From Polaribacter sp. IC073 (GTDB taxonomy: Bacteria; Bacteroidota; Bacteroidia; Flavobacteriales; Flavobacteriaceae), in the NCBI RefSeq assembly GCF_007997075.1, contig NZ_VORS01000005.1:62001-126000 (forward strand): a stretch of DNA of 64,000 nt, in the 5' to 3' direction. The notes below the pieces were generated by a model. The model did no database searches and was not told the DNA's origin. It saw only the letters and a program-made list of their open reading frames with translations. Position 1 is the first letter of the stretch, and each line of letters begins with the position of its first letter. Shown here piece by piece: positions 1-33,490 of the stretch. The translations under genes and the position numbers were made by a program.

Positions 1-218
1 TTTGCCACACTAGCAATCCAAACTGCTCTAAATTCTCTTTCGGTAGCAGGAGCATTCCTTTTTTTAATTTCAGTATTCGTTGTTTTTTTAACCGCTACCC
101 TTTTTACTACTGTAGGCGTGTAAACTTTTTTGCTACAATTGGTTAAAAGTAACATAAAAAAGACAATAAGAAATGCCGTTATTATTTTTTGGTAAAAACA
201 GCTTTTTTTTAAAATCAT
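1..218 (-). CDS. GHL10 (DUF187) family glycoside hydrolase lipoprotein, N-terminal part only
   Basis: The reading frame opens at an ATG at 218 and runs open to the window edge, so about 72 codons are visible. Residues 8-27 are hydrophobic and end in a lipobox LLTNC with Cys28, which predicts a lipoprotein. The last visible residues (EFRAVWIASVA) match the start of the GHL10/DUF187 catalytic domain, which in this family usually continues N-I-D-W-P. The family includes E. coli DigH (YddW), which cleaves denuded peptidoglycan glycans. It lies 32 nt downstream of the DeoR-type regulator gene on the same strand, so the two are probably co-transcribed. The family call rests on a short motif and the active site is outside the window. 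Confidence 0.7.
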   Translation of the reverse strand, partial: MILKKSCFYQKIITAFLIVFFMLLLTNCSKKVYTPTVVKRVAVKKTTNTEIKKRNAPATEREFRAVWIASVA

Positions 219-250
219 ATCCTTAAAGGTTTAATTTAAAAGGTTTTAAA

Positions 251-1000
251 TTAAATTAATACAACGCCAGCCTCTACATAATGCTGCAGCATTGGATCAT
301 TTACGTCTAGGTCTGTAATGGCAATATCAATTTCCTGTAGGCTACAAATATCATAATTAAGTCTAATGTTTAACTTGTTTGAGGTGGATAAATAGACGTT
401 TCGTTCAGAAGCTTTGATCATTGCTTTTTTAACCAACGCAACTTCATAACCTTCGCCAGTAATGCCTTGTTCTAAGCTAAAACCACTTACACCAATAAAA
501 CAAAGATTAGCGGTAATGTTAGATAAATATTGAATTACATCAATGCCTGTAGTTACCATCGAATTTCTTTGGATTCTCCCTCCAATAAAAATGGTTTCTA
601 TGGTTGGGTGCTCTGCTAATTGCATTGCAATTGGCAAACTATATGTGTAAATAGTTGCTTTTAATGTTTTCGGAAATAATTTTGCAAGCATTAAATTGGT
701 AGTCCCACCACTCATTATAATGACCATGCCATCTTCTACTAAAGTAATTGCTTTTTTAGCGATGAGTACTTTTTCTTCTCTTTTGTAGATTATATCTTCA
801 TTATAGTGATACAGTTTTTGCATGGTAGAAATTGCTCCTCCGTGCACTTTGGTAAGTAAACCTCTTTTATCTAATTCCTTTATATCTCTTCTTATGGTGT
901 CTTCGGAAACATTCAATTTTTCAGAAAGAAAACTAGAACTTACTTGCCTATTAATACTTACTTCATCTACTACTTTTTGCTGACGGTCCTTTTTCTTCAT
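251..1000 (-). CDS. DeoR/GlpR-family transcriptional regulator
   Basis: The 249-residue product has the standard DeoR layout. An N-terminal helix-turn-helix spans about residues 6-58 (with SEDTIRRDIKELDKRGLL), followed by a C-terminal sugar-phosphate-sensing domain with the phosphate loop MSGGTTNLMLAK and a conserved GEGYEVALVKKA segment. Members of this family usually repress sugar catabolic genes and are released by a phosphorylated sugar. The gene is divergent from susC across 356 nt, so it is the obvious candidate regulator of the locus. The inducer is not known from sequence; MurNAc-6-phosphate or GlcNAc-6-phosphate would fit the neighbouring enzymes. Confidence 0.88.
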   Translation of the reverse strand: MKKKDRQQKVVDEVSINRQVSSSFLSEKLNVSEDTIRRDIKELDKRGLLTKVHGGAISTMQKLYHYNEDIIYKREEKVLIAKKAITLVEDGMVIIMSGGTTNLMLAKLFPKTLKATIYTYSLPIAMQLAEHPTIETIFIGGRIQRNSMVTTGIDVIQYLSNITANLCFIGVSGFSLEQGITGEGYEVALVKKAMIKASERNVYLSTSNKLNIRLNYDICSLQEIDIAITDLDVNDPMLQHYVEAGVVLI

Positions 1001-1190
1001 AAAATTGATTTTCTCAAAAGTAAGATTTAATTAAGCAATTTTGCGATTTTTTTTGTGATAAAAAAATAATATTGCAATTGTTTGCGGTTATTTTTTATAA
1101 ATATGCAGAATTTAAAAATTAAGATAAAACTAATTTTTTTTCTCCGTGAGGGGACTTTATGTCTATTAAAATAAGGAATATTTGGGTTTT

Positions 1191-1207
1191 TAATAAACGA
1201 TTTATTA
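1191..1207. promoter_or_regulatory. Candidate operator palindrome TAATAAA-CGA-TTTATTA
   Basis: A perfect 7-bp inverted repeat with a 3-nt centre lies in the space between the DeoR-type gene and susC, about 115 nt upstream of the susC -7 element. Its position suits a regulator site, but AT-rich palindromes arise easily by chance, so the assignment is tentative. Confidence 0.3.
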
Positions 1208-1299
1208 GTCTTTGATTTGTGTTTATTGCGTTATTTTGTTGATTAATGTTTATTTATATGTTTTTAATTGAATAAATATTGCAGTTTTTTGCACATTAG

Positions 1300-1329
1300 T
1301 TGCGTGTTTTAATTATTTTTATATCTTTA
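1300..1329 (+). promoter_or_regulatory. Bacteroidota promoter for susC
   Basis: A TTG at 1300-1302 is separated by 19 nt from TATCTTTA at 1322-1329, which is one base off the TAnnTTTG -7 consensus. Transcription would start near 1336, giving a short leader before the ATG at 1357. Confidence 0.55.
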
Positions 1330-1356
1330 CCCTAATTAATTTAAACTCAAATTTAT

Positions 1357-4300
1357 ATGAAAAAAACGTACAACCTAACAATAGTATTGTTGCTGCTTTT
1401 GGTTGCGCAAAGTTCATTTGCTCAATTGAAGACGATTTCAGGAACTGTTACCGAAAAAGGGAGTAACATGCCTTTACCTGAGGTTAGTGTGTTTATCGAC
1501 CAAATTAATAAGGGAGATATAACTGACTTTGATGGTTTATATACTATAAAGGCTGAAGACTTAAAAGGAAAGACACTAACCTTTAGTTATCTTGGGTACA
1601 AAACAGTTGCGATTCAGTTGTCTGGAGAAAGCCAAGTAATAAACGCCATTTTAGAGCCAAACGCTACAAATCTTAATGAAATTGTTGTTACGGCTTTAGG
1701 GATTAAAAGAGAGTCTAAGGCTTTAGGCTATTCATTAACAAAAGTAGACGGAGATGATTTGTCTGCGGTGAAAAGTTCAAGTGCTGTAAATTCTTTACAA
1801 GGAAGAGTTGCGGGGGTTAATATTTCTTCAGGAAGTGGAGGAGCTGCAGGTTCTAGTAGAGTTATTATACGTGGTGCGAGTTCTTTAACAGGAAACAATC
1901 AGCCACTATATGTAATAGACGGAATTCCTGTTATTAATAACACGAATGGCTCTGTTGTGGGTGCAACAAATAATGCAACAGGAGATGGAGGAGATGATAT
2001 TTCTTCAATAAACCCAGATGATATTGAAAGTGTATCTGTTTTAAAAGGAAGTTCAGCAGCAGCTCTTTATGGTTCGCTAGCTTCTAATGGGGTAATCATG
2101 ATTACCACAAAATCGGGTAAGAATAAAAAAAGGATGGGAATAGAATATTCTAGTTCTTTTACTTTTGATAAGGTAAATACAGGTCTTCAAGATTTTCAAA
2201 CAACCTACGGACAAGGAAATAACAGGTTAAGACCAGGATACGAATATGATCTAACTGGTAATCCTGTAGAAATAGGAGTAGAAGCTAGTGCAATTGATGA
2301 TTCTTATGTGAGTTCTTTGCAGTCTTGGGGCGCTCCTTTAGATGGTTCGATGGTGTATAATTGGGACGGAGTTAAAAGACCTTATTCTTACACGGGCAAT
2401 AATCTAGATAAATTTTACAAAACAGGTGTTACTGCAATTAATACAATTGCCCTTGCAAAAGGAGGCGAAGGGTACAATTATCGTTTGTCTTTTTCAAACT
2501 TAGATAATAAAGATATTTTTCCTAATACTACTTTAAAAAGAAGGTCGATATCTTTAAACGCTTCTGCAAAAATTAGTTCAAAATTAACTTCTACCATCAA
2601 CACAAAATACATTGTAGAAGATGTACACAATCGTATAAGTATTGGTGATACACCAGGAAATGCAAATACGGTAGCGTTTGTATTGCCAAGTAGTTTAAAT
2701 ATTTATGATTTGAAACCAGGTTCTAATGAAGAAGGAACAGAGTTAAGGTTTCAACCAAGTCAGTTTATTTCAAATCCTTATTGGGCTACAAATGATTTTA
2801 ATAATGATGATACTAAAAATAGATTTACGGCATCAACTACTTTAAAATATGATGTAAACGATTGGTTGTATGTAACAGGAAGAACAGGTCTTGATACTTA
2901 TGATTTGTCTAGAAAACAAGTAACACCTTTTGGTACTGCTTATAGACCGGCAGGAGAATTATACCAAGTAAAATCTACATACAAGTTAGTAAATTCTGAT
3001 GTTATGTTAGGAATTGATAAAGACATTACAGATAAAATATCAACAAATTCTATCATAGGAGCCAATACAAGAACATCTAGCTTTGAGTCTTTAAGTGCCT
3101 TAGGAAGAGGTTTTATTGTGGTTGGTTTAGAAGATTTAAATAACACTACTTTACCAGAACCAAGTTATGGGTATTTTAAAACACAGACAAATTCTATCTA
3201 TGGCTCTTTTGAAGCGAGTTATGATAAGTATTTATATGTAACCTTTACTGGAAGAAATGATTGGTTTTCTACACTTTCTTTTCCAGGAAAAACGACGCCA
3301 AATGACGGCTTTTATTGGTCATTAAGTCAGAGTTTATTATTAAGTCAGGCTTTTGATTTGCCAGAAGCAATTAATTATGCTAAAGTAAGAGCAAGTTATG
3401 CCCAAGTTGCAGGTGGCGCTAGAAACGCTTATAGTTTAAATTTAGATTATGCAATTACGGGATCTTTTCAGGGACAGTCTTTCGGACAGTTAAATGGAAA
3501 TTCAATTCCAAATCCAAACTTAATTCCGTTTCAAAAAAATGAATTTGAAATTGGGTTTGAGGGACGCTTTTTTAACAATAGACTACATCTTGATATGGCT
3601 TATTATGCTAATAAAACTCAGAATGATATTGTTAGAGCAGCAGCTTCTCAATCCTCAGGATTTACATCATCAATTCTTAATATTGGTGAATTACAAAATA
3701 AGGGTTTTGAATTTTTACTAGGAGGTTCACCAATTGAAACAGAAGATTTCTCATGGAACACTTCATTTAACTTTGGGTTTAACGACAGTGAAATTATTCA
3801 TACAGATGATGAGGATACGGCAATTAATGTAGATGGAAGTTTAACGAGGTCTAGAACAGCAATTATTTCTCATATTGTTGGCGAGAATTATGGGGTAATT
3901 TTTGGTTCTTCATATAAAAGAGATGAAAACGGAACAATCATATATAACAATAGTGGATCTATGCCAAAACCTATTCAGGGAGAAAACAAAATACTAGGGC
4001 AAGGTGTTGCACCTTATACCATGGGTTTTTCAAACAGGTTTAGTTACAAAGATGTATCGTTAAGTTTTTTAATTGATGCTAAATTTGGAGGAAGTGTACA
4101 TTCTGGAACAAACAGGGAATTAATGATGAGAGGACTTCATAAAAAGACGCTTCAAGGTCGAGAAGATGGTTTAGAAGTATCTGGTATTGATAATGCTACA
4201 GGGCAGGCATTTACGAAGGTTGTGGCTCCAGAAAACTTACGAACTTATTATGGTTTTATAGGTGAAGAGAATTCAGGTATTTCAGAAGAATTTGTTTACA

Positions 4301-4545
4301 GTACAGACTTTATTAAGTTTAGAGAATTGAGTTTGTCATATAGTCTTCCACAAACAGCATTAAAAAATATTTTTATAGACAATGTAAGAATATCTGCTAT
4401 AGGTAGAAACCTGTTCTTTATTTCGAGAAAAATTGATAATGTAGACCCAGAGGCTTCATTAAATAATTTAAACTCTCAAGGGATAGAAAGATTTGGAACC
4501 CCATCAACAAGAAGTTATGGATTTTCAGTAAACGTTAAATTTTAA
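1357..4545 (+). CDS. SusC/RagA-family TonB-linked outer membrane receptor
   Basis: The 1062-residue protein starts with a signal peptide (cleavage after SSFAQ, about residue 22). A CarboxypepD_reg-like domain follows (about 27-110), then the plug with VVTALGIKRESKALGYS and LYVIDGIPV motifs, and a long beta-barrel ending in FSVNVKF. It imports glycan fragments across the outer membrane with its SusD partner, powered by TonB-ExbBD encoded elsewhere. The partner gene begins 10 nt downstream. The substrate cannot be read from the receptor; the downstream enzymes suggest peptidoglycan-derived saccharides. Confidence 0.93.
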   Translation: MKKTYNLTIVLLLLLVAQSSFAQLKTISGTVTEKGSNMPLPEVSVFIDQINKGDITDFDGLYTIKAEDLKGKTLTFSYLGYKTVAIQLSGESQVINAILEPNATNLNEIVVTALGIKRESKALGYSLTKVDGDDLSAVKSSSAVNSLQGRVAGVNISSGSGGAAGSSRVIIRGASSLTGNNQPLYVIDGIPVINNTNGSVVGATNNATGDGGDDISSINPDDIESVSVLKGSSAAALYGSLASNGVIMITTKSGKNKKRMGIEYSSSFTFDKVNTGLQDFQTTYGQGNNRLRPGYEYDLTGNPVEIGVEASAIDDSYVSSLQSWGAPLDGSMVYNWDGVKRPYSYTGNNLDKFYKTGVTAINTIALAKGGEGYNYRLSFSNLDNKDIFPNTTLKRRSISLNASAKISSKLTSTINTKYIVEDVHNRISIGDTPGNANTVAFVLPSSLNIYDLKPGSNEEGTELRFQPSQFISNPYWATNDFNNDDTKNRFTASTTLKYDVNDWLYVTGRTGLDTYDLSRKQVTPFGTAYRPAGELYQVKSTYKLVNSDVMLGIDKDITDKISTNSIIGANTRTSSFESLSALGRGFIVVGLEDLNNTTLPEPSYGYFKTQTNSIYGSFEASYDKYLYVTFTGRNDWFSTLSFPGKTTPNDGFYWSLSQSLLLSQAFDLPEAINYAKVRASYAQVAGGARNAYSLNLDYAITGSFQGQSFGQLNGNSIPNPNLIPFQKNEFEIGFEGRFFNNRLHLDMAYYANKTQNDIVRAAASQSSGFTSSILNIGELQNKGFEFLLGGSPIETEDFSWNTSFNFGFNDSEIIHTDDEDTAINVDGSLTRSRTAIISHIVGENYGVIFGSSYKRDENGTIIYNNSGSMPKPIQGENKILGQGVAPYTMGFSNRFSYKDVSLSFLIDAKFGGSVHSGTNRELMMRGLHKKTLQGREDGLEVSGIDNATGQAFTKVVAPENLRTYYGFIGEENSGISEEFVYSTDFIKFRELSLSYSLPQTALKNIFIDNVRISAIGRNLFFISRKIDNVDPEASLNNLNSQGIERFGTPSTRSYGFSVNVKF

Positions 4546-4555
4546 AAAATAGAAT

Positions 4556-6052
4556 ATGAAAAAAATATTTATTTTAGTAGTAATACTATGTACATTCAGT
4601 TTTTGTGATGACGGTTTCGAAGAACTCAATGTAAATCCAACAAAACCAGTTCAGTTAGATCCATCAACAAAACTTACCTATATTCAGTTATACACAGGAG
4701 GTAGTAGTTATGTTGCTTATTTATTTTGGAATGTTATTCATTTTATGCAAAACGTACAGCACTTAAATAATACTTCGTATGTATCCTTTTTATACAAAGA
4801 AGGAAATACACATTGGTTATTTGAAGAGCAATTTAAAACTACAGTAAAGAATATTGCCGATTTAGAAGCGCAATTAGAAACAAGTACAGCGCCTACTGCA
4901 ACGGTAGATTTAGCCATAGCAAGAGTACAAAAAGTTTTAATTTTTAGTAGAATAACAGACGCTTATGGAGACATTCCATATAGTGAGGCTGGTAAAGGAT
5001 TTTTAGAAGGGATTCGTTTTCCTAAATATGATACCCAAAGTTCTATTTATAGCAATATGTTAGAAACGCTAGAAGCTTCTGTAGTTGTTTTAAATTCAGG
5101 AGGTACAAGTTCTTATGGCACTGCAGATTTAATGTTTGCTGGTGATACAGGAAAATGGAAAAAGTTTGCCAATTCATTAATGCTACGTTTGGCTATGAGA
5201 ATGGTAAAAGTAGACGATGCAAGTGCAAAAGCATGGGCAACAAAAGCGATTAGCGGAGGAGTGATGACAAGTAATGCAGATATTGCTTTTTTACAATATG
5301 AGAATTCTGCAAATGATGGTGGACCAAACGTAAATCCGCTTACAAAGTGTTTTACATCGAGAGCCTCAACGCAGGTTAAAATTTCTAAAACTTTTATGGA
5401 TTTTATGAAAGATAGAGACGATCCAAGGGTTTCTGTTTTAGCATCTACGGTTAGTGGAGACACAGATCCTGCGTTACAATTTGGTCAAGATATAAATATA
5501 GCTACAAGAGGTACGGCAAATTCAAAACCAAACATTAATATTTTTGGTGGTTCTGGAAATGTAGTTTATGATGCGCCTTTTTTCTTTCAAACGTATGCAG
5601 AGGTTGAGTTTATGTTAGCAGAGGCTGGTGAAAGATGGAGCTTGGCAGGCGGAGCTACAAATGTTGAAACACATTACAATGCAGGTGTAACTGCGGCAAT
5701 GCAATATTTATCGATGTATGGTAATGGCGCAAATATTACAACTACTCAGATAGACGATTATTTAAATACGAATCCTTTTGTTCCTGCAGAAGCTTTAAAA
5801 ATGATCAATGAACAATATTGGGTAGCTACTTTTGGTAATGGTTTAGAAACTTTTTCAAATTGGAGAAGATCAGGGTATCCAGAGTTAGTGCCTGCAAGTG
5901 TTGCAGCGACGCTTACAGGTGGTGAAATACCAAGAAGACTTCCGTACCCAGCATCAGAAAAATTAAACAATCCTGCAAATGTTGAAGCTGCAATTGTACA
6001 ACAGGGAGGAGATTTACTAACCACAAGAATGTGGTGGGATAAAATTAATTAA
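4556..6052 (+). CDS. SusD/RagB-like surface lipoprotein (SusD-like_2 type)
   Basis: The 498-residue product has a lipoprotein signal peptide with the lipid-attachment Cys in FSFCDDG. It is followed at once by FEELNVNPTKP, a hallmark of the SusD-like_2 group. The rest is the TPR-rich helical fold, including the conserved RITDAYGDIPYSEA and MLAEAGERW-type segments. It caps the SusC barrel on the cell surface and captures the glycan. It is translated from the susC transcript and followed by a strong terminator, so susC-susD form one unit. The exact ligand is unknown. Confidence 0.92.
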   Translation: MKKIFILVVILCTFSFCDDGFEELNVNPTKPVQLDPSTKLTYIQLYTGGSSYVAYLFWNVIHFMQNVQHLNNTSYVSFLYKEGNTHWLFEEQFKTTVKNIADLEAQLETSTAPTATVDLAIARVQKVLIFSRITDAYGDIPYSEAGKGFLEGIRFPKYDTQSSIYSNMLETLEASVVVLNSGGTSSYGTADLMFAGDTGKWKKFANSLMLRLAMRMVKVDDASAKAWATKAISGGVMTSNADIAFLQYENSANDGGPNVNPLTKCFTSRASTQVKISKTFMDFMKDRDDPRVSVLASTVSGDTDPALQFGQDINIATRGTANSKPNINIFGGSGNVVYDAPFFFQTYAEVEFMLAEAGERWSLAGGATNVETHYNAGVTAAMQYLSMYGNGANITTTQIDDYLNTNPFVPAEALKMINEQYWVATFGNGLETFSNWRRSGYPELVPASVAATLTGGEIPRRLPYPASEKLNNPANVEAAIVQQGGDLLTTRMWWDKIN

Positions 6053-6353
6053 TAAAAAAAACTAGCGATAAGTAAATCCCCCAACCGGAAAAGTCACTTA
6101 TTATCATTATTATATTTTGAATTAGTGATAAGAGGTGAGATGTTGAAACTCCACTCTCACCTCTTATTTTAATAAAGGGTTTAAACTTAGGAAGACAATT
6201 CTTCTTAAATTTGAAAAAGTAAAAACTTTTGTATTTAAAATTGAACTTCAAAAATAAAATTACAATTATTTTAAAAAAAAGGATGTCAACTTAAAGACCA
6301 TAATTAATGGTACTTAACAATTGATAAAAGTAGTTTAAAGCTAATAAATTAAG
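6053..6353. other. Intergenic region between susD and the symporter gene
   Basis: This spacer holds the susD terminator (6129-6170). It must also contain the promoter of the downstream catabolic operon, but I did not find a convincing -7/-33 pair. No gene was seen in it. Confidence 0.5.
6129..6170 (+). terminator. Rho-independent terminator after susCD
   Basis: The arms TAAGAGGTGAG (6129-6139) and CTCACCTCTTA (6156-6166) pair perfectly over 11 bp and are followed by TTTT. This separates the SusCD unit from the downstream operon. Confidence 0.8.
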
Positions 6354-7808
6354 ATGAACTCAACCATAATTCTATTACTCATTGTATCTTATTTTGGAGT
6401 ATTAATGTTAATTTCACATTTCACATCCAAAAATACAAGTGACGATTCCTTCTATACAGGAGACAGAAAATCTCCCTGGCAGGTAGTTGCTTTTGGGATG
6501 ATTGGCGCCGTTATGTCTGGTGTAACATTTGTTTCTATACCAGGAATGGTAAGTAATAATTATTTTTATTATTTACAGTTCGTTTTCGGAAACGTAGTGG
6601 GTTACGTGTTTATAACCTACGTGCTCATTCCCATCTATTACAATTTAAAATTGGTTTCGATATACAGTTATTTAGAAACCAGATTCGGACCAAAAACATA
6701 CAAAACAGGCTCTTTATTTTTCTTGATTTCGCAATCATTTGGTGCTGCATTAAGATTATTGCTAGCTGCAAAAATTTTACAATATGCCGTTTTCGATGCA
6801 TTTAACATTCCTTTTTATGCAACCGTAATTATCATCTTAATTTTAATTTGGATGTACACTAATAAATCGGGAATTAAAACCATTGTTTGGACAGATACTT
6901 TGCAAACCTTCTTTTTACTGATGGCTGCAATCGTATCTATATTTATCATAAAAGACGCTTTAAATTTAAGCGTTTCAGAAACGATAACTTCTATTACAGA
7001 ACATAAATATTTTAAGGTTTTTAATTGGGATTTTAATTCGGGAAGCAACTTTTTTAAACAGTTTATTTCAGGAATTTTAATTGCTGTTGCCATGGTTGGT
7101 TTAGATCAAAATATGATGCAAAAAACCTTAACCTGTAAAAATAAAAAGGAAGCACAGCGTAATATATTAACATTCAGTTTGTTTTTAGCCTTGGCGCAAT
7201 TTCTTTTTTTAGGTTTAGGTGTGATGCTTTATTTGTACGCAGAAAAATTCGGAATTCAATTAGAAATGGAAAACGGAAAGTTTATCAATACAGATAATTT
7301 ATTTCCAATGCTTTCTCTCGGAAATTTTGGAACTGTAGCAGCGGTTAGTTTTATTTTAGGAATCACTGCAGCTTCATTTTCTAGTGTAGATTCATCATTA
7401 ACAGCACTAACAACATCTTTTACGGTCGATTTTTTAGATGTCAAAAATAAAAATTCAAAAGAAAAAAAACGTCTTAAAAATTATGTGTTACTTGGTTTTT
7501 CTGTGATCATATTTATCATCATCATGTTATTTTCAGAAAGTAAAGGAGATGTAATTACAACAATATTTAAAGTTGCAGGCTATACATATGGTCCGTTATT
7601 GGGGCTTTATTTGTTGGGTATTTTTACTAAAATAAATATAAAAGATGCAGTAGTACCTTATGTCTGTATTTTAATGCCATTGCTAACTTATTATTTAAAC
7701 TACATCGTTAAAGAAAAATTCTCTTTCGATTTAGGCTTTATGAATATATTATTAAACGCATCATTAACAATTTTAAGTTTAATCCTTACACGAAATAAAA
7801 ATGATTAA
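6354..7808 (+). CDS. Sodium:solute symporter (SSS family), probable amino-sugar importer
   Basis: The 484-residue polytopic protein has about 13 hydrophobic segments and the SSS features TGDRKSPWQVVAFGMIGAVMSGVTF near the N-terminus and QTFFLLMAA in the middle. It is likely an inner-membrane Na+-coupled importer. The stop overlaps the murQ start by 8 nt, so the two are translationally coupled and the cargo is probably the substrate of the MurQ branch (MurNAc, or a disaccharide containing it). That substrate is inferred from context only. Confidence 0.87.
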   Translation: MNSTIILLLIVSYFGVLMLISHFTSKNTSDDSFYTGDRKSPWQVVAFGMIGAVMSGVTFVSIPGMVSNNYFYYLQFVFGNVVGYVFITYVLIPIYYNLKLVSIYSYLETRFGPKTYKTGSLFFLISQSFGAALRLLLAAKILQYAVFDAFNIPFYATVIIILILIWMYTNKSGIKTIVWTDTLQTFFLLMAAIVSIFIIKDALNLSVSETITSITEHKYFKVFNWDFNSGSNFFKQFISGILIAVAMVGLDQNMMQKTLTCKNKKEAQRNILTFSLFLALAQFLFLGLGVMLYLYAEKFGIQLEMENGKFINTDNLFPMLSLGNFGTVAAVSFILGITAASFSSVDSSLTALTTSFTVDFLDVKNKNSKEKKRLKNYVLLGFSVIIFIIIMLFSESKGDVITTIFKVAGYTYGPLLGLYLLGIFTKINIKDAVVPYVCILMPLLTYYLNYIVKEKFSFDLGFMNILLNASLTILSLILTRNKND

Positions 7809-8622
7809 CAACCTAACAACAGAGCAAACATCAGATTACAATAATTTAGAAGAAATGAGTACGTTTGAATTACTTTCAAACATGAATATAGAAGATAAAA
7901 AAGTGCCTAATGCAGTTGAAAAAGCCATACCACAAATTGAAAAATTAACGGATGTTATTCATGCGAAAATGAGTAAAGGAGGAAGACTTTTCTACATTGG
8001 AGCAGGAACAAGTGGTAGATTAGGGGTTTTGGATGCTTCGGAATGTCCACCTACATTTGGTGTTTCAGATAATTGGATTATTGGAATAATTGCTGGTGGA
8101 GATACTGCGCTTAGAAAAGCTATTGAAAATGCAGAAGATGATACCGAGTTAGCTTGGAAAGATTTACAAGAACACAATATTACAGACAAAGATGTTCTTA
8201 TTGGTATTGCGGCTTCAGGTACTACACCGTATGTAATTGGTGGCTTACAAAAAGCGAAACAGCACCAAATTATAACTGGCTGTGTTACGTGTAATAAAGA
8301 CTCCCCATTATCATTAGAAGCAGATCTTCCGGTAGAATTAATTGTTGGGCCAGAGTTTGTAACTGGAAGCACAAGAATGAAAGCGGGTACAGCACAAAAG
8401 TTGGCGTTGAATATGATTTCTACAACGGTGATGATAAAACTGGGTCGTGTAAAAGGAAATAAAATGGTAGACATGCAATTGTCAAACAAAAAACTTGTTT
8501 CAAGAGGTGTTAGAATGGTTATGGATGATCTGAATATTGATGAAGAATTGGCGACCAAATTATTACAAAAACATAAAAGTGTTAGAAAAACGATAGAAGC
8601 ATATAAAGCGGAAGTGAAATAA
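7801..8622 (+). CDS. murQ: N-acetylmuramic acid 6-phosphate etherase
   Basis: MurQ removes the D-lactyl ether from MurNAc-6-phosphate, giving GlcNAc-6-phosphate and D-lactate. The 273-residue sequence has a SIS sugar-isomerase fold with the signature YIGAGTSGRLGVLDASECPPTFG. The catalytic Glu is residue 81, and a second conserved Glu lies near residue 112 in ENAED. A further conserved stretch is TGSTRMKAGTAQKLALNM. The length is near the family norm. The ATG lies inside the end of the symporter gene. This is the marker gene that ties the locus to peptidoglycan sugar catabolism. Confidence 0.96.
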   Translation: MINNLTTEQTSDYNNLEEMSTFELLSNMNIEDKKVPNAVEKAIPQIEKLTDVIHAKMSKGGRLFYIGAGTSGRLGVLDASECPPTFGVSDNWIIGIIAGGDTALRKAIENAEDDTELAWKDLQEHNITDKDVLIGIAASGTTPYVIGGLQKAKQHQIITGCVTCNKDSPLSLEADLPVELIVGPEFVTGSTRMKAGTAQKLALNMISTTVMIKLGRVKGNKMVDMQLSNKKLVSRGVRMVMDDLNIDEELATKLLQKHKSVRKTIEAYKAEVK

Positions 8623-8636
8623 ATAAACTGGCAAAA

Positions 8637-9743
8637 ATGATACTAAAAGAAAGACTAAAAGCATTAGATGTTTTAAGAGGAATCACCATAGCGGCAATGA
8701 TTTTGGTAAATACACCAGGTAGTTGGTCTTATGTATATTGGCCTTTATTGCATGCAAAATGGCATGGTTTTACACCAACAGATGCCGTTTTTCCTTTTTT
8801 CCTATTTATTGTTGGGGTTTCTATCCATTTTGCCTTTAAAAATTTTAAGCCAGAAGAAAATTCAAAAGCATTAAAGAAGATTATTAAAAGAACCTTTATC
8901 ATTTTTGCAATAGGATTGTTTTTAAATCTCTATCCTAAATTTAATTTTGAAACGGTTCGGTATTTCGGGGTTTTACAGCGTATTGCGCTTGCATACGGAA
9001 TTGGCGCTTCCATTTGTTTGCTCTTCAATAAAAGAAGCCTGATCTATGTTACCGCTGGTATTTTAATAATTTATTGGGGATTGTTATATTTCCTTGTTCC
9101 AGAAAATCCGTTTGCACCACAAACCAACTTAGTGGGTAAAATAGACCTGTATTTATTTGGTCCAAATCATATCTGGAAAGGGCTAGGTTTTCCTTTTGAT
9201 CCTGAAGGATTATTATCAACATTACCATCTATTGCTACTGTTCTTATTGGTAGTTTAGCAGGTAGTTTTTTAAGTAAATCGACAGACATCACTCTTAAAA
9301 TAAAAAGACTTTTAATTTACGGATTCAGTCTTGTAGTGTTGGGATATGTCTGGAGTTTTGTGTTTCCTATAAATAAATCGCTTTGGTCAAGTTCTTTTGT
9401 GTGTTTTTCTGCAGGTTTTGCAATGCTACTATTGGCGTTTTTAATATGGCTTATTGATGTGAAAAAATACAGTTCCTGGTCTCAACCATTTATACATTTT
9501 GGTACCAATTCATTATTTATTTTTGTTTTTTCTGGTTTGTATGTAAAAACAATGATTTATTTGGTAAAAATTACAAATGCACAAGGTGAAACTACAAGTG
9601 CTCTAAACTACCTGTATCAAAATATATTTGTTCCAATTGCTGGAAATATGAACGGGTCGCTATTATTTGCAATTGCTCATATTCTCTTTTTTTGGAGTCT
9701 AGTTTACATTTTGTTCAGAAAAAAAATATTTATAAAAATTTAA
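8637..9743 (+). CDS. NagX/HGSNAT-like membrane acyltransferase (DUF5009)
   Basis: The 368-residue protein has about ten transmembrane segments. It opens with LKALDVLRGITIAAMILVN, typical of the acyltransferase-3/HGSNAT group, and carries HAKWHGFTPTDAVFPFFLFIVG, whose histidine region corresponds to the active site of human heparan-alpha-glucosaminide N-acetyltransferase. NagX proteins occur in bacterial GlcNAc catabolic operons, where their exact role (transport or acetyl transfer) is unsettled. Its position between murQ and the NagZ-like gene suggests it handles GlcNAc/MurNAc or re-acetylates glucosamine residues. Confidence 0.82.
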   Translation: MILKERLKALDVLRGITIAAMILVNTPGSWSYVYWPLLHAKWHGFTPTDAVFPFFLFIVGVSIHFAFKNFKPEENSKALKKIIKRTFIIFAIGLFLNLYPKFNFETVRYFGVLQRIALAYGIGASICLLFNKRSLIYVTAGILIIYWGLLYFLVPENPFAPQTNLVGKIDLYLFGPNHIWKGLGFPFDPEGLLSTLPSIATVLIGSLAGSFLSKSTDITLKIKRLLIYGFSLVVLGYVWSFVFPINKSLWSSSFVCFSAGFAMLLLAFLIWLIDVKKYSSWSQPFIHFGTNSLFIFVFSGLYVKTMIYLVKITNAQGETTSALNYLYQNIFVPIAGNMNGSLLFAIAHILFFWSLVYILFRKKIFIKI

Positions 9744-9753
9744 TTCATAAAAA

Positions 9754-11442
9754 ATGAAAAAATCAGTTCCTATCTTTTTAGTCTTATTAGCAATGATTTT
9801 TAGTTGTGACAAAAAACAAACTAAAAGCAATATATTAGAAAATACAAACCAAACAAAATGGGTAGATAGTATTTATAATACAATGACTCTTAAAGAAAAA
9901 GTAGGACAGCTATTTATGATCGCTGCGTATTCAAATAAAGAGGAAAGTCATACAGATACGATTCAAAAATTGATAAAAGAAAACGGAATTGGCGGACTGG
10001 TCTTTTTTCAAGGAGGACCTGTAGGGCAAGCAAAGCAAACAAACTTATACCAATCGACTTCGAAAGTGCCTTTGTTAATTGCAATGGATGCAGAATGGGG
10101 TTTAAATATGCGTTTAGATAGCACCGCAAGGTTTCCTTATAATATGACACTTGGTGCTTTAGATGACAACGATTTGGTGAAAAAAGTTGGTCATAAAATT
10201 GGTGAGCATTGCAATCGTTTGGGAGTTCATATTAATTTTGCACCTGTAGTAGATATCAATACAAACTCTAAAAACCCGATAATTGGTGTGCGTTCTTTTG
10301 CTGAAAATAAAATAAATGTCACCAATAAAGCAATTGCATTTACAGAAGGTTTGCAAAGTCTAAATGTATTGGCATGTGCAAAGCATTTTCCTGGTCATGG
10401 AGATACCGATAAAGATTCTCATAAAACGTTACCAACTGTTTCGTTATCAAAAGAAAGAATTGATTCCGTTGAGTTTTATCCGTATAAAAAATTATTTAAA
10501 AACAACATTGCAGGCGTTATGGTAGCGCATTTGAATGTGCCAAGTTTAGAAAGTACAGACGGACTTCCGTCTTCGTTATCACACCATATTGTTTCAGATA
10601 TTTTAAAAGAGAAATTGCAATTTAAAGGACTCATTTTTACGGATGCTTTGAATATGAAAGGAGCTTCAAACTATAAAGAAACTGGAGATATAGATTTGGC
10701 AGCGTTTATGGCTGGAAACGATGTTTTGGTATTAACAGAGGATGTTTCGAAAGGAATGTCAAAAATTATGGAAGCTTATCAAACAGCAGAAATTACAGAA
10801 AAAAGATTAGCGCATTCGGTTAAAAAGATTCTTACAGCTAAATTTAAGGTACAATTAAATAATTTTAAACCCATTGAAACAGCAAATCTTATTACTGATT
10901 TAAATGATGAAACGAATGATGCTTTAAACGAAGAAATATTTATAAATGCAATTACTGCACTAAAAAATACGGATAAAATTCTTCCGATAATAAAAGAAGA
11001 AAAAATAGCATTTATGCATTTAGGTGATGGAAATTCTGCTGCATTTTTAGAAGAATTAAAGGCACATGTAGCTGTTGATGTATTTTCTGATGTTACAAAT
11101 AAAAAGCTACTTCAGAAACTTAAAAAATATGATAAAGTTATTATTGGCTATCACCGTTTAAATAGTAGGTTAACTTCAAAAATTTCTAAAAAAGATCAGT
11201 CGATGATTGAACGTATTGCGAAAAACAATAAAGTAGTTTTAGACGTATTTGCAAGTCAGTATTGTCTAGAAAACCTTTCGTTTGAAAATATTGAAGGAAC
11301 AGTTATTTCTTATGAAAATACGGATATTGCTCAAAAGATATCTGCACAAATTATTATAGGAAATAAGGAAGCAAAAGGGAGATTACCTGCTTCTATAAAC
11401 AACAACTTTGTAACGGGTAAGGGAATTGAAATATTAAATTAA
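9754..11442 (+). CDS. GH3 beta-N-acetylglucosaminidase, NagZ-like lipoprotein
   Basis: A lipobox puts the lipidated Cys at residue 18 (MIFSC). The GH3 catalytic domain carries the NagZ signature KHFPGHGDTDKDSH near residues 209-222, whose His acts as general acid/base, and FTDALNMKG with the Asp nucleophile near residue 297. NagZ enzymes release terminal GlcNAc from GlcNAc-MurNAc. At 562 residues it is much longer than E. coli NagZ because of a C-terminal domain after about residue 370; no serine beta-lactamase-type domain is fused. Lipidation implies a periplasmic or membrane-bound site rather than the cytoplasm. Confidence 0.9.
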   Translation: MKKSVPIFLVLLAMIFSCDKKQTKSNILENTNQTKWVDSIYNTMTLKEKVGQLFMIAAYSNKEESHTDTIQKLIKENGIGGLVFFQGGPVGQAKQTNLYQSTSKVPLLIAMDAEWGLNMRLDSTARFPYNMTLGALDDNDLVKKVGHKIGEHCNRLGVHINFAPVVDINTNSKNPIIGVRSFAENKINVTNKAIAFTEGLQSLNVLACAKHFPGHGDTDKDSHKTLPTVSLSKERIDSVEFYPYKKLFKNNIAGVMVAHLNVPSLESTDGLPSSLSHHIVSDILKEKLQFKGLIFTDALNMKGASNYKETGDIDLAAFMAGNDVLVLTEDVSKGMSKIMEAYQTAEITEKRLAHSVKKILTAKFKVQLNNFKPIETANLITDLNDETNDALNEEIFINAITALKNTDKILPIIKEEKIAFMHLGDGNSAAFLEELKAHVAVDVFSDVTNKKLLQKLKKYDKVIIGYHRLNSRLTSKISKKDQSMIERIAKNNKVVLDVFASQYCLENLSFENIEGTVISYENTDIAQKISAQIIIGNKEAKGRLPASINNNFVTGKGIEILN

Positions 11443-11483
11443 AAAAGCATACGACTATTGTAAAAAACTAAAACCCAACCATT

Positions 11484-12950
11484 ATGAAACAAAAACTACA
11501 TTCCGCAATATTATATTTAGTTGTACTATTTTCATGTAACATTGTTTTATCACAAGAGATCGTAAAGAAAGGAATTCACGAATTGCAAGCAGAAGAGTTT
11601 GGTAAGTCTGTAAAACGATCTATAATTTCAGGTAAGATTAACGCTGAAATTATTCCGTTGCAAAATAAAAGTTCAAAAACTTTATCAAAAATGGTTTTTG
11701 GTTTTTTACCCTATTGGGAGCAAAGTGATGGTGCGCATAACAATATTCAATATGATTTATTAACGCATTTGGCATGTTTCGATTTTAGAGTACAATTAGA
11801 TGCAGCTATTTCTACGCCTCCGGGTTGGCCTTGGATAACTGAAATTAATGCGGCGCATGCTGCAGGAACAAAAGTTATTATGACGGTTGTTAATTTTGGA
11901 GGATCAGATGGAGCAGACGCAGTTGCTTGGGAATTGTTTACTAATTCAGCAAAGCAAAATACATTTTTTGCCAATGTTAAAAATTTAATACAAACTTATA
12001 GTTTAGATGGTGTAAATATCGATTTTGAAGGAATAACAAGCGCACATAGGGGAGCTGAATTAAATACCTTTATGGCGAGTTTAACAACGTATATTCATCA
12101 AGAATTACCAGGAAAAGAAGTGTCTTTTGATGGACCTGCAGTAAATTGGGGCGGTTGGATTATGGATGACTTGGTAGATAGTGTAGATTATTTAATTATA
12201 ATGGCGTATGATTATACATCTGGTTCTTCAGATAAATCGGGTCCGGTTGCACCATTAAAGCACCATACTTCTTGGAAAAGGTCTGTTAAAAGAACTGTAG
12301 AAACAGGAACTTATAAAGTTCCAACAGTGAATCATCCAGAAAAGTTAGTTTTGGCAATTCCGTATTACGGGCAACATTGGAAAACAGCAACCAATGCATC
12401 TGAGTCTACAACAAGTTCTCATGTGAAATCTACAAGATATAGAAATACCTCTACGGAAGCTGCAACTCATGGTGGTTGGATTTGGAATGCCGATTTTGAA
12501 GTTCCATGGTATACTTGGAATGATGGTTCAGATTGGAATCAAATTTGGGCTGATAACGAAGCAAGTCTTTCAAAAAAATACGATTTGGCAATTTCTAATA
12601 ATTTAGGAGGTGTTGGTATTTGGGCGTTAAACTATGACGGAACAAGACCAGAACTTTGGAGTTTAATTAGTGCTAAATTTGGAGCAACTGCCAATGTAGG
12701 GGCAAGTTTAAAAGAAAAAATATCGTTTTACCCTAATCCAGCTAATAATACAATCAATATTTCTAATCTAGAAAATATAGCGTTGGCAGAGGTTGATGTT
12801 TATAATATTTTAGGGAAATTAATAAAGGGTGTAGCTGTTAAAAAGCAATCGGTTGATATTTCTAATTTATCTAATGGTGTATACTTCTTTAAAGTATTAG
12901 ATGCATCTGGAAATCAAGAAACTTTTAAAATTATAAAAACATCACTTTAA
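11484..12950 (+). CDS. GH18-family hydrolase with T9SS sorting domain
   Basis: The 488-residue protein has an N-terminal signal peptide (to about residue 24) and a GH18 TIM barrel. The catalytic motif DGVNIDFEG lies at about residues 175-183, with Glu as acid; the usual middle Asp of DGxDxDxE is Asn here. LIIMAYDYTSG is the conserved later strand. A type A T9SS sorting domain covers about residues 410-488 (YPNPANN...FKIIKTSL), so the enzyme is surface-attached or released. It may be an endo-beta-N-acetylglucosaminidase on peptidoglycan, or a chitinase; the neighbours favour the former. Confidence 0.86.
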   Translation: MKQKLHSAILYLVVLFSCNIVLSQEIVKKGIHELQAEEFGKSVKRSIISGKINAEIIPLQNKSSKTLSKMVFGFLPYWEQSDGAHNNIQYDLLTHLACFDFRVQLDAAISTPPGWPWITEINAAHAAGTKVIMTVVNFGGSDGADAVAWELFTNSAKQNTFFANVKNLIQTYSLDGVNIDFEGITSAHRGAELNTFMASLTTYIHQELPGKEVSFDGPAVNWGGWIMDDLVDSVDYLIIMAYDYTSGSSDKSGPVAPLKHHTSWKRSVKRTVETGTYKVPTVNHPEKLVLAIPYYGQHWKTATNASESTTSSHVKSTRYRNTSTEAATHGGWIWNADFEVPWYTWNDGSDWNQIWADNEASLSKKYDLAISNNLGGVGIWALNYDGTRPELWSLISAKFGATANVGASLKEKISFYPNPANNTINISNLENIALAEVDVYNILGKLIKGVAVKKQSVDISNLSNGVYFFKVLDASGNQETFKIIKTSL

Positions 12951-12959
12951 CAATCGGTT

Positions 12960-14165
12960 ATGAAAAATTACATCCTATTATTATGCGCTCTTATTATAAT
13001 CTCTTGTACTTCTAAAAAAGACAAAGCAACAGTACAATCAGATGAATTAGAAAACAAAACCGCTGCTAAAATTATAGTAGCAGCAAACTTAACGGAGCAG
13101 TATTTACCAATACTCAAAGGAAAAAATGTTGGTGTTGTCGCAAATCAAACAAGTGTTCTTTTTAAAAGAGAAACAAATGTACACCTTGTCGACTCTTTAG
13201 TTGCTTTAGGTGTAAATGTTACAAAAGTTTTTGCTCCAGAACATGGTTTTAGAGGAAAAGCAGACGCTGGAGAACATGTAGCAGATGGTGTTGATGCAAG
13301 TACAGGTTTGCCTATTGTTTCTTTATATGGAGCAAATAGAAAACCATCGCAAGAGCATTTAAAAGGTTTAGATGTTATGCTGTTCGATATTCAGGATGTA
13401 GGTGTCCGTTTTTACACCTATATTTCTACACTTCATAATGTAATGGAGGTTTGTGCAGAGTTAAACATTCCGCTTATTGTTTTAGACAGACCGAATCCTA
13501 ATGGGCACTATGTTGATGGTCCGATGTTAGAACAAGAAGCAAAAAGTTTTGTAGGAATGCATCCTGTTCCTACGGTTTACGGAATGACAATTGGAGAATA
13601 TGGTAAAATGATTAATGGCGAAAAATGGTTGGAAAACGGAATTCAGTGCGACCTTACGGTAATATCATTAAAGAATTACACACATCATTCTGAATATAAT
13701 TTACCAATACTTCCTTCACCAAATTTACCAAACGCGAAGGCTATTAATTTATATCCTAGTTTGTGTTTTTTTGAAGGAACAAATGTAAGTGCTGGTAGAG
13801 GTACAGAAATGCAATTTCAAATTTTTGGTTCGCCTTTTTTACCTGAAAAGTCTTTTGATTTTAGTTTCACACCACAACCTAATTTTGGTGCAAAACACCC
13901 GAAGCATGACGGAGAAATGTGCTACGGAAGAGATTTAAGAAATAGAGAGAAGCTGAGTAGTTTAAATTTAAACTGGTTGATTGAATCGTATAAGAATACA
14001 GAAAATAAAGCCCAGTTTTTTAATAAATTCTTTCTAAAGTTAGCAGGAACTTCAAAATTACAAAAGCAAATTGAGCAAGGAGTTTCGTTTGAAGATATAA
14101 AAGCAAGTTGGCAAAATGATTTAAATACATTTCAAAAGGTTAGAAAAAAATACCTCTTGTATTAA
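12960..14165 (+). CDS. namZ: Exo-beta-N-acetylmuramidase, NamZ-like (GH171, DUF1343) lipoprotein
   Basis: A lipobox (IIISC, Cys16) predicts membrane anchoring. The DUF1343 core shows APEHGFRGKADAGEHV (about 92-107), LDVMLFDIQDVGVRFYTYIS (about 137-156) and LDRPNPNGHYVDGPML, all typical of the YbbC/NamZ family that removes terminal MurNAc from peptidoglycan oligomers. At 401 residues it has normal length. With the NagZ-like enzyme it could strip MurNAc and GlcNAc alternately from glycan chains. It begins 9 nt after the GH18 gene and is the last gene of the operon. Confidence 0.9.
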   Translation: MKNYILLLCALIIISCTSKKDKATVQSDELENKTAAKIIVAANLTEQYLPILKGKNVGVVANQTSVLFKRETNVHLVDSLVALGVNVTKVFAPEHGFRGKADAGEHVADGVDASTGLPIVSLYGANRKPSQEHLKGLDVMLFDIQDVGVRFYTYISTLHNVMEVCAELNIPLIVLDRPNPNGHYVDGPMLEQEAKSFVGMHPVPTVYGMTIGEYGKMINGEKWLENGIQCDLTVISLKNYTHHSEYNLPILPSPNLPNAKAINLYPSLCFFEGTNVSAGRGTEMQFQIFGSPFLPEKSFDFSFTPQPNFGAKHPKHDGEMCYGRDLRNREKLSSLNLNWLIESYKNTENKAQFFNKFFLKLAGTSKLQKQIEQGVSFEDIKASWQNDLNTFQKVRKKYLLY

Positions 14166-14251: not shown

Positions 14252-16270
14252 TTAGATTAAACCCGCTCTTTTTAATAAAGCATCTGGTTTTGGTTCTTTT
14301 CCTCTAAAACGTTTGTATAGTTCCATTGGTTTTTCTGTTCCTCCTTTAGAAAGTACATTGTCTTTAAATTTTGTAGCGACTTCTTTGTTAAAAATGCCTT
14401 CTTCTAAGAAATACTCAAAAGCATCTGCATCTAAAACTTCAGCCCATTTGTATGAATAATAACCGGCAGAATATCCTCCTTGAAAAATATGTGAAAAAGA
14501 AGTACTCATTACATTTTCTGCAACATCAGGGTATAATTTTGTTTCAGCAAAAGCATCATTTTCAAATTCCTTTACAGAGGTAATGGTCTGTGGAGATTCG
14601 CCACCGTGCCATTGCATGTCTAACAAACCAAAACTAAGTTGCCTTAATGTTTGCATTCCTTCGTGAAAACTTGCCGATTCTTTAATTTTTTCCACATATT
14701 TCATCGGAATAATTTCTCCTGTTTCATAATGTTTTGCAAACAACTCTAAAGCTTCTTTTTCAAAACACCAGTTTTCTAAAACCTGACTCGGTAATTCTAC
14801 AAAATCCCAAGAAACCGAAGTTCCGGATAAACTATTGTAGGTTGTGTTTCCTAACATGCCGTGAAGGGCATGACCAAATTCATGAAACAACGTGGTAACC
14901 TCATTAAAAGTTAATAAAGAAGGCTTTGTTGCGGTTGGTTTTGTAAAATTACAAACAATAGAAACGTGTGGTCTTTCGTTAATACCGTTTTTAATTTGTT
15001 GTGATTTATAAGACGTCATCCACGCACCATTTCTTTTTCCTTTTCTTGGATGAAAATCAGCATAAAAAACAGCAATAAAATTTCCATTTATATCAGTAAC
15101 GTTATACGTTTTAACGTCTTCGTGGTATTTGTCGATGTTAGAGACTTCTTCAAATTTTAAATCGAATAATCGATTTGCAATTTCAAAAACACCATCAATT
15201 ACATTCTCTAATTTAAAATAAGGCTTTAATAATTCTTGGTCTAAATCAAATAATTCTTTCTTTAATTTTTCTGAATAATAAGCGCCATCCCATTTTTGAA
15301 GTTGGTCAATACCGTCTAATTTTTTCGCGTAATTTTCTAAGTTTTCAAACTCTTTTAAAGCCGCAGGTTTTGCTTTTTTTAATAAATTATTAGAAAAGTC
15401 AATTACTTTTTCTGGCGTTTCTGCCATTCTTTCTTCTAAAACAAAATGAGCATGTGTTTTGTAACTTAATAAATTAGCTCTTTCATGACGCAGATTCACA
15501 ATCTCTAAAACAATTTTTTCATTATTGAATTCATTGTCTTGAAATCCTTTTTTACCAGCAGCAATTGCCATTTTTTTACGCAACGCTCTATTGTCTGCAT
15601 AGGTTAAGAATGGAATGTAACTTGGGTAATCTAAAGTAAAAATCCAACCTTCTTTTTCCTTAGACTTTGCAACTTCTCTCGCTGCTTCTTTTTCGCTTTC
15701 TGGCAAACCTGCTAAATCTCTTTCATCTGTTAAGTGCATTTCAAAAGCATTGGTTTCTGCCAATACATTCTCGCCAAATTTTAAAGACAATTTAGATAGT
15801 TTTGCATCAATTTCACGAAGCTTAGTTTTATCTGCTTCATTTAAGTTCGCACCATTTCTTGCAAAACTTTTGTATTGCTTGTCTAAAAGCATTACTTGTT
15901 CTGGCGTTAAATCTAAGGTTTCTTTTGTTTCAAAAACCGACTTTACTCTCTTAAACAAAGCTTCATTTAACGTAATGTCATTTCCAAATTCACTTAACCA
16001 AGGCGAAACTTCTTGCGCTATTTTCTGGATTTCGTCATTGGTTTCAGCAGAATTTAAGTTGAAGAAAATACTGGTAATTCTATTTAGTTTTTCACCAGAA
16101 AAATCTAAAGCAACGGTTGTATTTTTAAAAGTAGGTGTTTCAGAGTTCTGTATAATTGCATCAATTTCTGCTTTTGCAATTTCAATTCCTTTTTTAATTG
16201 CTGGTTTGTAATTGTTGTTAGAAATTTTAGAAAAAGGAGCGGTGTTAAAGTCTTGTAAAAGTGGATTCAT
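14252..16270 (-). CDS. M3-family zinc metallopeptidase (oligopeptidase A / Dcp type)
   Basis: The protein degrades oligopeptides, probably in the cytoplasm, since no signal peptide is seen. The zinc site HEFGHALHG lies at about residues 463-471. The C-terminal part carries SHIFQGGYSAGYYSYKWAEVLDADAF, characteristic of the family. I place the start at the ATG at 16270 (MNPLLQDFNTAPF, 672 residues), because the upstream in-frame extension (to 16318) does not resemble the family and falls in the promoter space. Length matches E. coli oligopeptidase A. It converges with the namZ-like gene and is probably unrelated to it. Confidence 0.92.
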   Translation of the reverse strand: MNPLLQDFNTAPFSKISNNNYKPAIKKGIEIAKAEIDAIIQNSETPTFKNTTVALDFSGEKLNRITSIFFNLNSAETNDEIQKIAQEVSPWLSEFGNDITLNEALFKRVKSVFETKETLDLTPEQVMLLDKQYKSFARNGANLNEADKTKLREIDAKLSKLSLKFGENVLAETNAFEMHLTDERDLAGLPESEKEAAREVAKSKEKEGWIFTLDYPSYIPFLTYADNRALRKKMAIAAGKKGFQDNEFNNEKIVLEIVNLRHERANLLSYKTHAHFVLEERMAETPEKVIDFSNNLLKKAKPAALKEFENLENYAKKLDGIDQLQKWDGAYYSEKLKKELFDLDQELLKPYFKLENVIDGVFEIANRLFDLKFEEVSNIDKYHEDVKTYNVTDINGNFIAVFYADFHPRKGKRNGAWMTSYKSQQIKNGINERPHVSIVCNFTKPTATKPSLLTFNEVTTLFHEFGHALHGMLGNTTYNSLSGTSVSWDFVELPSQVLENWCFEKEALELFAKHYETGEIIPMKYVEKIKESASFHEGMQTLRQLSFGLLDMQWHGGESPQTITSVKEFENDAFAETKLYPDVAENVMSTSFSHIFQGGYSAGYYSYKWAEVLDADAFEYFLEEGIFNKEVATKFKDNVLSKGGTEKPMELYKRFRGKEPKPDALLKRAGLI

Positions 16271-16398
16271 TGTATTTTTTTTAAAGTTCAAATATAAAGA
16301 TTCTATTAATCTTATCATTTATTTAATTGAAAGTTTCCTTTAAACGATAGAATATGTTTTTTTAGCGAAAATTATTTAATATTTATAAAATTTGGTAT

Positions 16399-28421: not shown

Positions 28422-28441
28422 CATTGATATCAAAATTATAT

Positions 28442-33487: not shown

Positions 33488-33490
33488 ATT

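Follow-up and report, generated by a model that had tools for sequence, protein, structure and literature searches.

Which glycan is served by a SusC/SusD-type locus that also carries genes of N-acetylmuramic acid (MurNAc) metabolism? The question is raised by a gene cluster of Polaribacter sp. IC073, situated at positions 251-14165 of the window, the 64,000-nucleotide stretch of DNA analyzed here (contig NZ_VORS01000005.1, positions 62,001 to 126,000; G000:C45:62001-126000 of the 3.76-Mb assembly, where G, C and, below, L numbers denote genomes, contigs and loci). The cluster is probably a DeoR-controlled utilization locus directed at the glycan of peptidoglycan. MurQ, a NagZ-type glycoside hydrolase of family 3 (GH3) and NamZ share this one cluster, which supports such a function, and the catabolism of a glycan of N-acetylglucosamine (GlcNAc) and MurNAc is well supported by the predicted proteins. 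Most likely, it serves to take up peptide-free GlcNAc-MurNAc glycan and to break it down. A first-pass annotation had proposed that the cell feeds on the peptidoglycan strands of other bacteria, cutting them outside with a GH18 and a GHL10 enzyme. The substrate class is well supported, because of the gene families and their conserved neighbors, while the external role of GHL10 is doubtful. All substrate specificities, the protein locations, DeoR binding and the use of foreign over own walls are what we infer from the sequence.

Gene content and conservation

Family calls on the locus proteins come from Pfam and NCBIfam profile scans and give the following features:

1-218, minus strand: C-terminal 72 residues of a GHL10 protein, DigH/Cwp19-like (PF02638; whole gene 533 aa)
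251-1000, minus strand: DeoR-family regulator, divergent from the operon (PF08220/PF00455)
1073-1086: candidate operator TGCAATTGTTTGCG, an NGCA-N6-TGCN palindrome (spacer palindrome test)
1280-1293: second candidate operator TGCAGTTTTTTGCA (spacer palindrome test)
1357-4545, plus strand: SusC-type TonB-dependent outer-membrane transporter (TIGR04056, 591 bits, cut-off 368)
4556-6052, plus strand: SusD-type lipoprotein (PF12771)
6354-7808, plus strand: sodium:solute symporter (SSS), candidate MurNAc importer (PF00474; MurT-like by superfamily and position only)
7801-8622, plus strand: MurQ, MurNAc-6-phosphate etherase (TIGR00274, 335 bits, cut-off 302)
8637-9743, plus strand: NagX/COG4299-like membrane protein (NF046061, 165 bits, under its 480-bit cut-off)
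9754-11442, plus strand: GH3 N-acetylglucosaminidase of NagZ type, lipoprotein-type N-terminus (PF00933)
11484-12950, plus strand: GH18 enzyme with a type A sorting tail of the type IX secretion system (T9SS) (PF00704, TIGR04183)
12960-14165, plus strand: NamZ (GH171), exo-N-acetylmuramidase-type, lipoprotein-type N-terminus (PF07075 and PF20732)

The SusC/SusD pair, DeoR, MurQ, GH3, NamZ, the T9SS-exported GH18 and the symporter of the first-pass annotation are all present, and the symporter and MurQ reading frames do share 8 nt, as it had reported. Its gene list overlooked the NagX-like gene. The GHL10 gene that it placed in the locus is real, with only the 72 C-terminal residues inside the window; the gene continues ~1.4 kb past the left edge, and the remainder was read upstream at L003:8617-10218. 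GHL10 lies 32 nt downstream of deoR, which is on the minus strand; the plus strand then carries SusC, SusD, the symporter, MurQ, the NagX-like gene, GH3, GH18 and NamZ. Intergenic gaps measure 9-41 nt (10 nt between SusC and SusD), except for those between SusD and the symporter (301 nt) and between deoR and SusC (356 nt); because of the 301-nt gap, a single transcript is not assured. With adjacent SusC and SusD genes kept as a unit with degradative enzymes and a regulator, the cluster is a polysaccharide utilization locus (PUL), and its regulator is DeoR, not of the hybrid two-component system or extracytoplasmic function sigma type.

The gene set recurs in related genomes. In a family sample of 149 genomes (the window genome and 148 others), SusD orthologs of 72-81% identity were found in 6 of the 148, all within ~6 kb of a MurQ gene, and all six loci contain DeoR, SusC, SusD, the symporter, MurQ, GH3 and NamZ together. 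Given this seven-gene core in 6/6 loci, the association is not due to chance. Further members are less constant: NagX occurs in five of the six loci (the G021 frame is interrupted), a D-2-hydroxyacid dehydrogenase with flavin adenine dinucleotide and iron-sulfur domains (FAD/Fe-S) in four, a NagB-deacetylase fusion in four, and DUF6259 and a divergent NamZ in three each. The stretches compared vary from 20 to 48 kb, and that of G117 lies at the end of a contig, which makes the absence of a gene less certain than its presence. Near SusD proteins of only 36-55% identity, no relative of MurQ, NamZ or the symporter was present (0/13 loci).

Some of these loci contain additional elements. The DUF6259 gene lies between the symporter and MurQ (L066:12430-14724 and L070:11299-13674 by Pfam, L069:5585-7873 by BLAST), and its product is a candidate new wall-glycan enzyme. 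Beside the main locus, G109 carries a second DeoR-SusC-SusD-NamZ set (L185:5409-12151) and G146 a second SusCD pair (L187:8047-13087). At L080:523-7403, a SusC/SusD pair of ~55% identity adjoins a NagB-deacetylase fusion, with no MurQ in the 12 kb read; this is perhaps a GlcNAc-only sister locus.

A wider comparison covers the best 80 of at least 590 candidate MurQ loci, chosen by likeness to the window MurQ. A symporter relative is present in 15 of the 80. Near MurQ, SusD was found in 7/15 of these SSS-linked loci vs. 0/65 of the others, SusC in 10/15 vs. 7/65, NamZ in 9/15 vs. 3/65 and DeoR in 6/15 vs. 0/65, counts in which SSS linkage is the sorting criterion, the hidden Markov model (HMM) seeds come partly from the same loci, and loci stop at contig ends. 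The SusD HMMs missed one SusD that Pfam finds in L120. The dehydrogenase occurs in 5/15 SSS-linked loci, or 3/15 without the weak matches of L117 and L123 (26-27% identity), and AnmK does not distinguish the two groups (2/15 vs. 1/65). In L105, L106 and L124, an epimerase-type (MR_MLE), NlpC/P60 or AmpG-like transporter gene is found near MurQ; the L106 epimerase and the L124 transporter score under the NCBIfam cut-offs, and the L105 epimerase is called by Pfam only. Relatives of the cluster occur in cultured Flavobacterium and Sphingobacteriaceae strains, among them F. zhairuonense (L134) and F. hibernum (L113).

The SusCD pair is not the same in all of these loci. G118 possesses a different pair, accompanied by DeoR, GHL10, NamZ, MurQ, the symporter, GH3, AnmK and NagX, with a dehydrogenase gene ~270 nt from deoR. 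The window SusD belongs to PF12771, those of G118 and L120 are of the SusD_RagB type, and F. zhairuonense (L134) holds the G118-type pair at 79% identity; at least two non-orthologous SusCD kinds thus go with the same core. In a MurQ tree of 88 rows, whose bootstrap is not fully settled, the window copy groups with eight other locus copies in one clade (98/93), every member of which is linked to a symporter. The symporter label changes 6 times on this tree, compared to 20.5 times in shuffles, and does not mark a single clade.

The spacer between deoR and the first divergent gene contains the palindrome NGCA-N6-TGCN in 7/7 loci (the window and the six orthologous loci). In 2000 dinucleotide shuffles, at most 3/7 spacers had the motif at the same spacing and at most 4/7 at any spacing of 2-12. 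The latter control partly answers the post hoc choice, as the palindrome was spotted by eye in 9-mer output and then tested; for G021, the spacer was cut to 66 nt because the open reading frame (ORF) caller began NagX too late. The exact shared 9-mers were themselves rejected as an operator, being AT-rich noise. Beside other SusCD pairs, 4/5 deoR-susC spacers have the palindrome (L085, L113, L134 and L185; L120 lacks it), vs. at most 3/5 in 2000 shuffles. These five are the divergent deoR-susC spacers among 21 loci, and their sites were already known when the test was made, so this result is also post hoc. No intergenic site was found in 7 of the 21 loci, and a tight-consensus scan of seven genomes gave 24 matches vs. 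9 for the reversed control, with no clear further regulon. The GCA-N6-TGC palindrome is a candidate DeoR operator.

A proposed route for wall glycan

Strands would be cut at the cell surface by the T9SS-exported GH18. This enzyme probably acts as an endo-glucosaminidase, so that the non-reducing ends would carry MurNAc. SusD and SusC would move the fragments across the outer membrane. Peptides would have to be taken off by amidases encoded outside the locus. In the periplasm, the DigH-like GHL10 would shorten peptide-free strands, while the NagZ-type GH3 and NamZ would trim terminal GlcNAc and terminal MurNAc, respectively. The symporter would take in MurNAc, a MurK-like kinase encoded elsewhere would phosphorylate it, and MurQ would open the lactyl ether, yielding GlcNAc-6-phosphate and D-lactate, the MurQ products given in the relevant passages of PMC5061867. 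Both products could then be fed into central metabolism by the NagB-deacetylase fusion and the D-2-hydroxyacid dehydrogenase.

The hydrolases fit this route to different degrees. NamZ has solved relatives (4jja, 4k05) and retains the PEHG glutamate, which we take to be catalytic. The GH3 carries KHFPGHGDTDKDSH, fitting the NagZ loop motif, and its structure matches are 6k5j and B. subtilis YbbD/NagZ (3bmx, 3.1e-55). The catalytic motif of the GH18 is DGVNIDFE (DGVN(I/M)DFE in three orthologs), which departs from the canonical chitinase motif DxxDxDxE. Structure matches as a guide to GH18 specificity were not decisive, with spore-wall YdhD best (2.6e-14, profile) and a chitinase next (7e-13). 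Among solved structures, GHL10 has a single match at a threshold of E 0.001, namely C. difficile Cwp19 (5oq2, E 1.7e-77). GHL10 is 38% identical across 320 aa to E. coli DigH, an enzyme that is described, in the part of PMC12288456 concerned, as specific for denuded (peptide-free) glycans.

A simple lipobox pattern matches the N-termini of GH3 and NamZ and also that of GH18, where the cysteine is absent in the three orthologs; the GHL10 N-terminus does not match the pattern and was judged lipoprotein-like by eye. In Flavobacteriia, acidic residues after the lipid cysteine are linked to surface lipoproteins. Such residues directly follow the cysteine in SusD, but not in NamZ, GH3 (one D only) or GHL10 (by eye). 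GH3, NamZ and GHL10 are therefore more likely to face the periplasm, with SusD on the surface, which would leave GH18 as the surface cutter. It is on this point that GHL10 working outside the cell becomes doubtful, as its N-terminus looks like those of GH3 and NamZ.

Regarding transport, the closest solved structure to SusD is CusDII of the Flavobacterium johnsoniae chitin locus (5j5u, E 1.4e-68); chitin shares a beta-1,4 GlcNAc-type backbone with the peptidoglycan glycan. SusD similarity alone was rejected as a substrate guide, because SusDs at 36-55% identity adjoin unrelated genes (FG-GAP proteins, fucosidases, a NagB fusion). The NagX-like protein, for which counting hydropathic stretches in a simple way gives seven membrane-like segments, is a possible transmembrane amino-sugar N-acetyltransferase, NagX presumably being a relative of the human heparan N-acetyltransferase. 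In G021, NagX (L070:3549-4662) looks interrupted: the gene starts ~350 nt ahead of the called ORF, and between the two are a stop and an extended G run, which could reflect decay, phase variation or a sequencing error. The symporter is of the same superfamily as Tannerella forsythia MurT, a likeness by superfamily and position; in the passages of PMC5790795 on this protein, MurT is assigned to the sodium-symporter superfamily, and in one of them to the major facilitators instead.

The remaining steps are encoded outside the locus in the window genome: the NagB gene at C49:1381, the dehydrogenase at C30:430595, AnmK at C41:359979 and the MurK-like kinase at C41:318283. In several relatives, the NagB fusion and the dehydrogenase are found within or beside the locus. 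The kinase, missed by Pfam in the window genome, was found with a protein query (E 6.6e-48 to T. forsythia MurK). MurK relatives adjoin MurQ in 6/80 of the wider set of loci; in L133, L156, L159, L177, L178 and L182, a MurK-like gene immediately precedes MurQ in the same orientation, overlapping it or lying within 20 nt of it in four. A canonical NagA over the cut-off was found in none of eight genomes (G013 is a near miss, 218 bits vs. a cut-off of 226), and the nagB model exceeds its cut-off in all eight, the best open frame having ~640-680 aa in each. The PIG-L part of this fusion is seen by Pfam in L071 and L080 alone and by a full-length NCBIfam model in L184; the NagB-PIG-L (deacetylase) fusion may replace NagA. 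For the FAD/Fe-S dehydrogenase, D-lactate is a plausible substrate because of its membership in the D-2-hydroxyacid group, and the additional copies outside the locus in G021 and G146 suggest a locus-dedicated paralog.

Other NamZ copies were also observed. Around a second gene of the window genome (L004:8969-10234; G000:C44:99968-101233), 19.5 kb inspected by eye contain neither MurQ nor SusCD nor any other evident gene for wall sugars; a LysM-like small protein is encoded 4 kb off. In Riemerella anatipestifer, according to the passage of PMC8459023 on DUF1343, the NamZ family, a transposon mutant in such a gene lost natural transformation. Divergent NamZ genes are located at L066:9669-10856, L067:9185-10369, L069:9456-10700 and L185:10967-12151; those of L066, L067 and L069 sit between SusD and the symporter. 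In the L066 copy, PQHG replaces PEHG and no signal peptide is apparent, so this protein may have another activity or none. Just past the locus, the window encodes an M3-type peptidase (14252-16318, opposite orientation), followed by a laminin-G-like protein with a T9SS tail (16450-18903); further on (28424-35791), adjacent TamB-like and Omp85-family genes form an ordinary outer-membrane assembly pair.

Points against and competing explanations

Several observations weigh against a peptidoglycan function. Neither a kinase nor an amidase was found among the locus genes in family scans, with no search aimed at amidases. The small residues S133-P134-L135 of MurK give space for the lactyl group, according to the passage in PMC10465942; the kinase of the window genome has P-S-L at these positions and E in place of T94, so its specificity is ambiguous. 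The best NCBIfam model for the dehydrogenase, YdiJ, is a D-2-hydroxyglutarate enzyme and scores far under its cut-off (602 vs. 1350 bits). Of the two strand-cutting enzymes, GH18 is absent from three of the six orthologous loci, and GHL10 was found in only two. The nearest structures to GH18 mix a spore-wall enzyme with chitinases, and the closest solved SusD relative binds chito-oligosaccharides. Finally, GH20, GH88, heparinase-type and GH9 neighbors in other loci point to other glycans.

The strongest alternative, which we nevertheless judge unlikely, is that the locus recovers turnover products of the cell's own wall after these have leaked across the outer membrane, and does not feed on other bacteria. 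The core genes are indeed those of a wall-sugar recycling operon (B. subtilis murQRP-amiE-nagZ-ybbC, ybbC being, we assume, NamZ), and G012 and G021 have no strong MurQ listed besides that of the locus, which may also serve recycling there. Against this reading stands a patchy distribution: SusD at 72% identity or more occurs in 6/148 genomes, whereas MurQ passes the TIGR00274 cut-off in 130/149. Moreover, 5/7 locus-bearing genomes keep another strong MurQ outside the locus; that of the window genome (C50) falls in a separate 31-row clade (99/95), none of it symporter-linked. A large-capacity SusCD system and a secreted GH18 would also seem expensive if recycling were their sole purpose.

A chitin or chito-oligosaccharide locus that incidentally holds MurQ and NamZ is very improbable. 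It would account for a SusD nearest to CusDII of a chitin locus and for the GH18 and GH3, as both families also serve chitin and chitinases score close behind YdhD. However, the genome encodes a separate canonical GH18 (C1:56860) with DGVDLDWE and 301 bits vs. 111 bits for the locus enzyme, whose orthologs are the sole GH18 found in G109, G146 and G021, and MurQ, NamZ and DigH-like genes have, to our knowledge, no role on chitin.

Least probable of all is a different amino-sugar glycan, either glycosaminoglycan-like or a polymer associated with the wall, of which MurQ would process a by-product, a reading suggested by NagX in 5/6 orthologous loci, by the GH88 and heparinase-type neighbors of another SusCD pair (L113) and by the SusD relatives at 46% and 55% that adjoin fucosidases and the NagB fusion, respectively. 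Against it, the scanned locus genes include neither a lyase nor a sulfatase, and the 13 loci mentioned above have no relatives of MurQ, NamZ or the symporter.

The utilization of peptidoglycan glycan remains the preferred reading, and it could be extended, tentatively and with more doubt than confidence, to a recurrent class of Bacteroidota foraging loci. These would combine a MurQ/MurT-like core and one DeoR operator code with unrelated SusC/SusD pairs swapped in. Where walls have been de-N-acetylated, NagX would restore the acetyl group of their glucosamine residues in the periplasm and thereby allow NagZ to act. If such a class exists, it would represent the first route known to us by which peptidoglycan glycans are imported across the outer membrane. 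Organic nitrogen and carbon are present in large amounts in peptidoglycan, and since the cluster is compact and combines a predicted operator with an importer and a chain of enzymes, wall-glycan import by Gram-negative scavengers becomes directly testable.

Comparison with known systems

The chitin utilization locus (ChiUL) of F. johnsoniae, whose GH18 chitinase is secreted by the T9SS, possesses no MurQ or NamZ that we know of. It shares the SusD family with the Polaribacter locus (CusDII) and differs by the chitinase ChiA and a two-component sensor, as far as described in the ChiUL passages of PMC5127042.

The cluster murQ-murR-murP-amiE-nagZ-ybbC of B. subtilis, treated as recycling in the passages of PMC5061867 on this operon, likewise groups MurQ, a MurNAc importer, a regulator, NagZ and NamZ. 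In contrast to the Polaribacter locus, it relies on import by the phosphotransferase system (PTS), includes an amidase, has MurR instead of DeoR and involves no outer membrane or SusCD. The unit ampG-ybbC-murT-murK-murQ of T. forsythia, a MurNAc auxotroph whose MurNAc operon has been experimentally tested, unites an SSS-superfamily MurNAc importer, a YbbC homolog and MurQ in a Bacteroidota; it additionally has the kinase MurK and AmpG, and SusCD, GH3 and GH18 are not among the genes named in the relevant parts of PMC5388701, PMC5790795 and PMC7670621. With MurQ, the NagZ-type GH3 and NamZ, the window locus would work like these MurNAc catabolic operons, but is not classed as one because the cluster contains no kinase or PTS.

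In the open-license literature searched, no experimentally tested SusCD-bearing peptidoglycan locus was found, nor were the conserved palindrome, the dehydrogenase partner or the pairing with different SusCD types. The locus is nevertheless not new in kind, as a similar PUL was drawn in 2023 for the Urechidicola symbiont of Idas mussels, most of its genes being "involved in murein metabolism"; the authors left the source of the substrate open in the passages on this PUL (PMC10199937). Both belong to Flavobacteriaceae, and deoR, a sodium symporter, murQ, GH3, GH18, GH171, GH10 and susCD are shared, as judged from the gene list in the legend of Fig. 5B of that paper, where "GH10" is probably GHL10. 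The Urechidicola PUL further has two susCD pairs, nagB, ampG, ampD, dacA, an epimerase, bioF and nhaC, according to the same passages, so nagB was already part of such a PUL. The window locus has one susCD pair and NagX and none of these extra genes, while the second sets beside the main loci of G109 and G146 recall the two-pair arrangement of Urechidicola.

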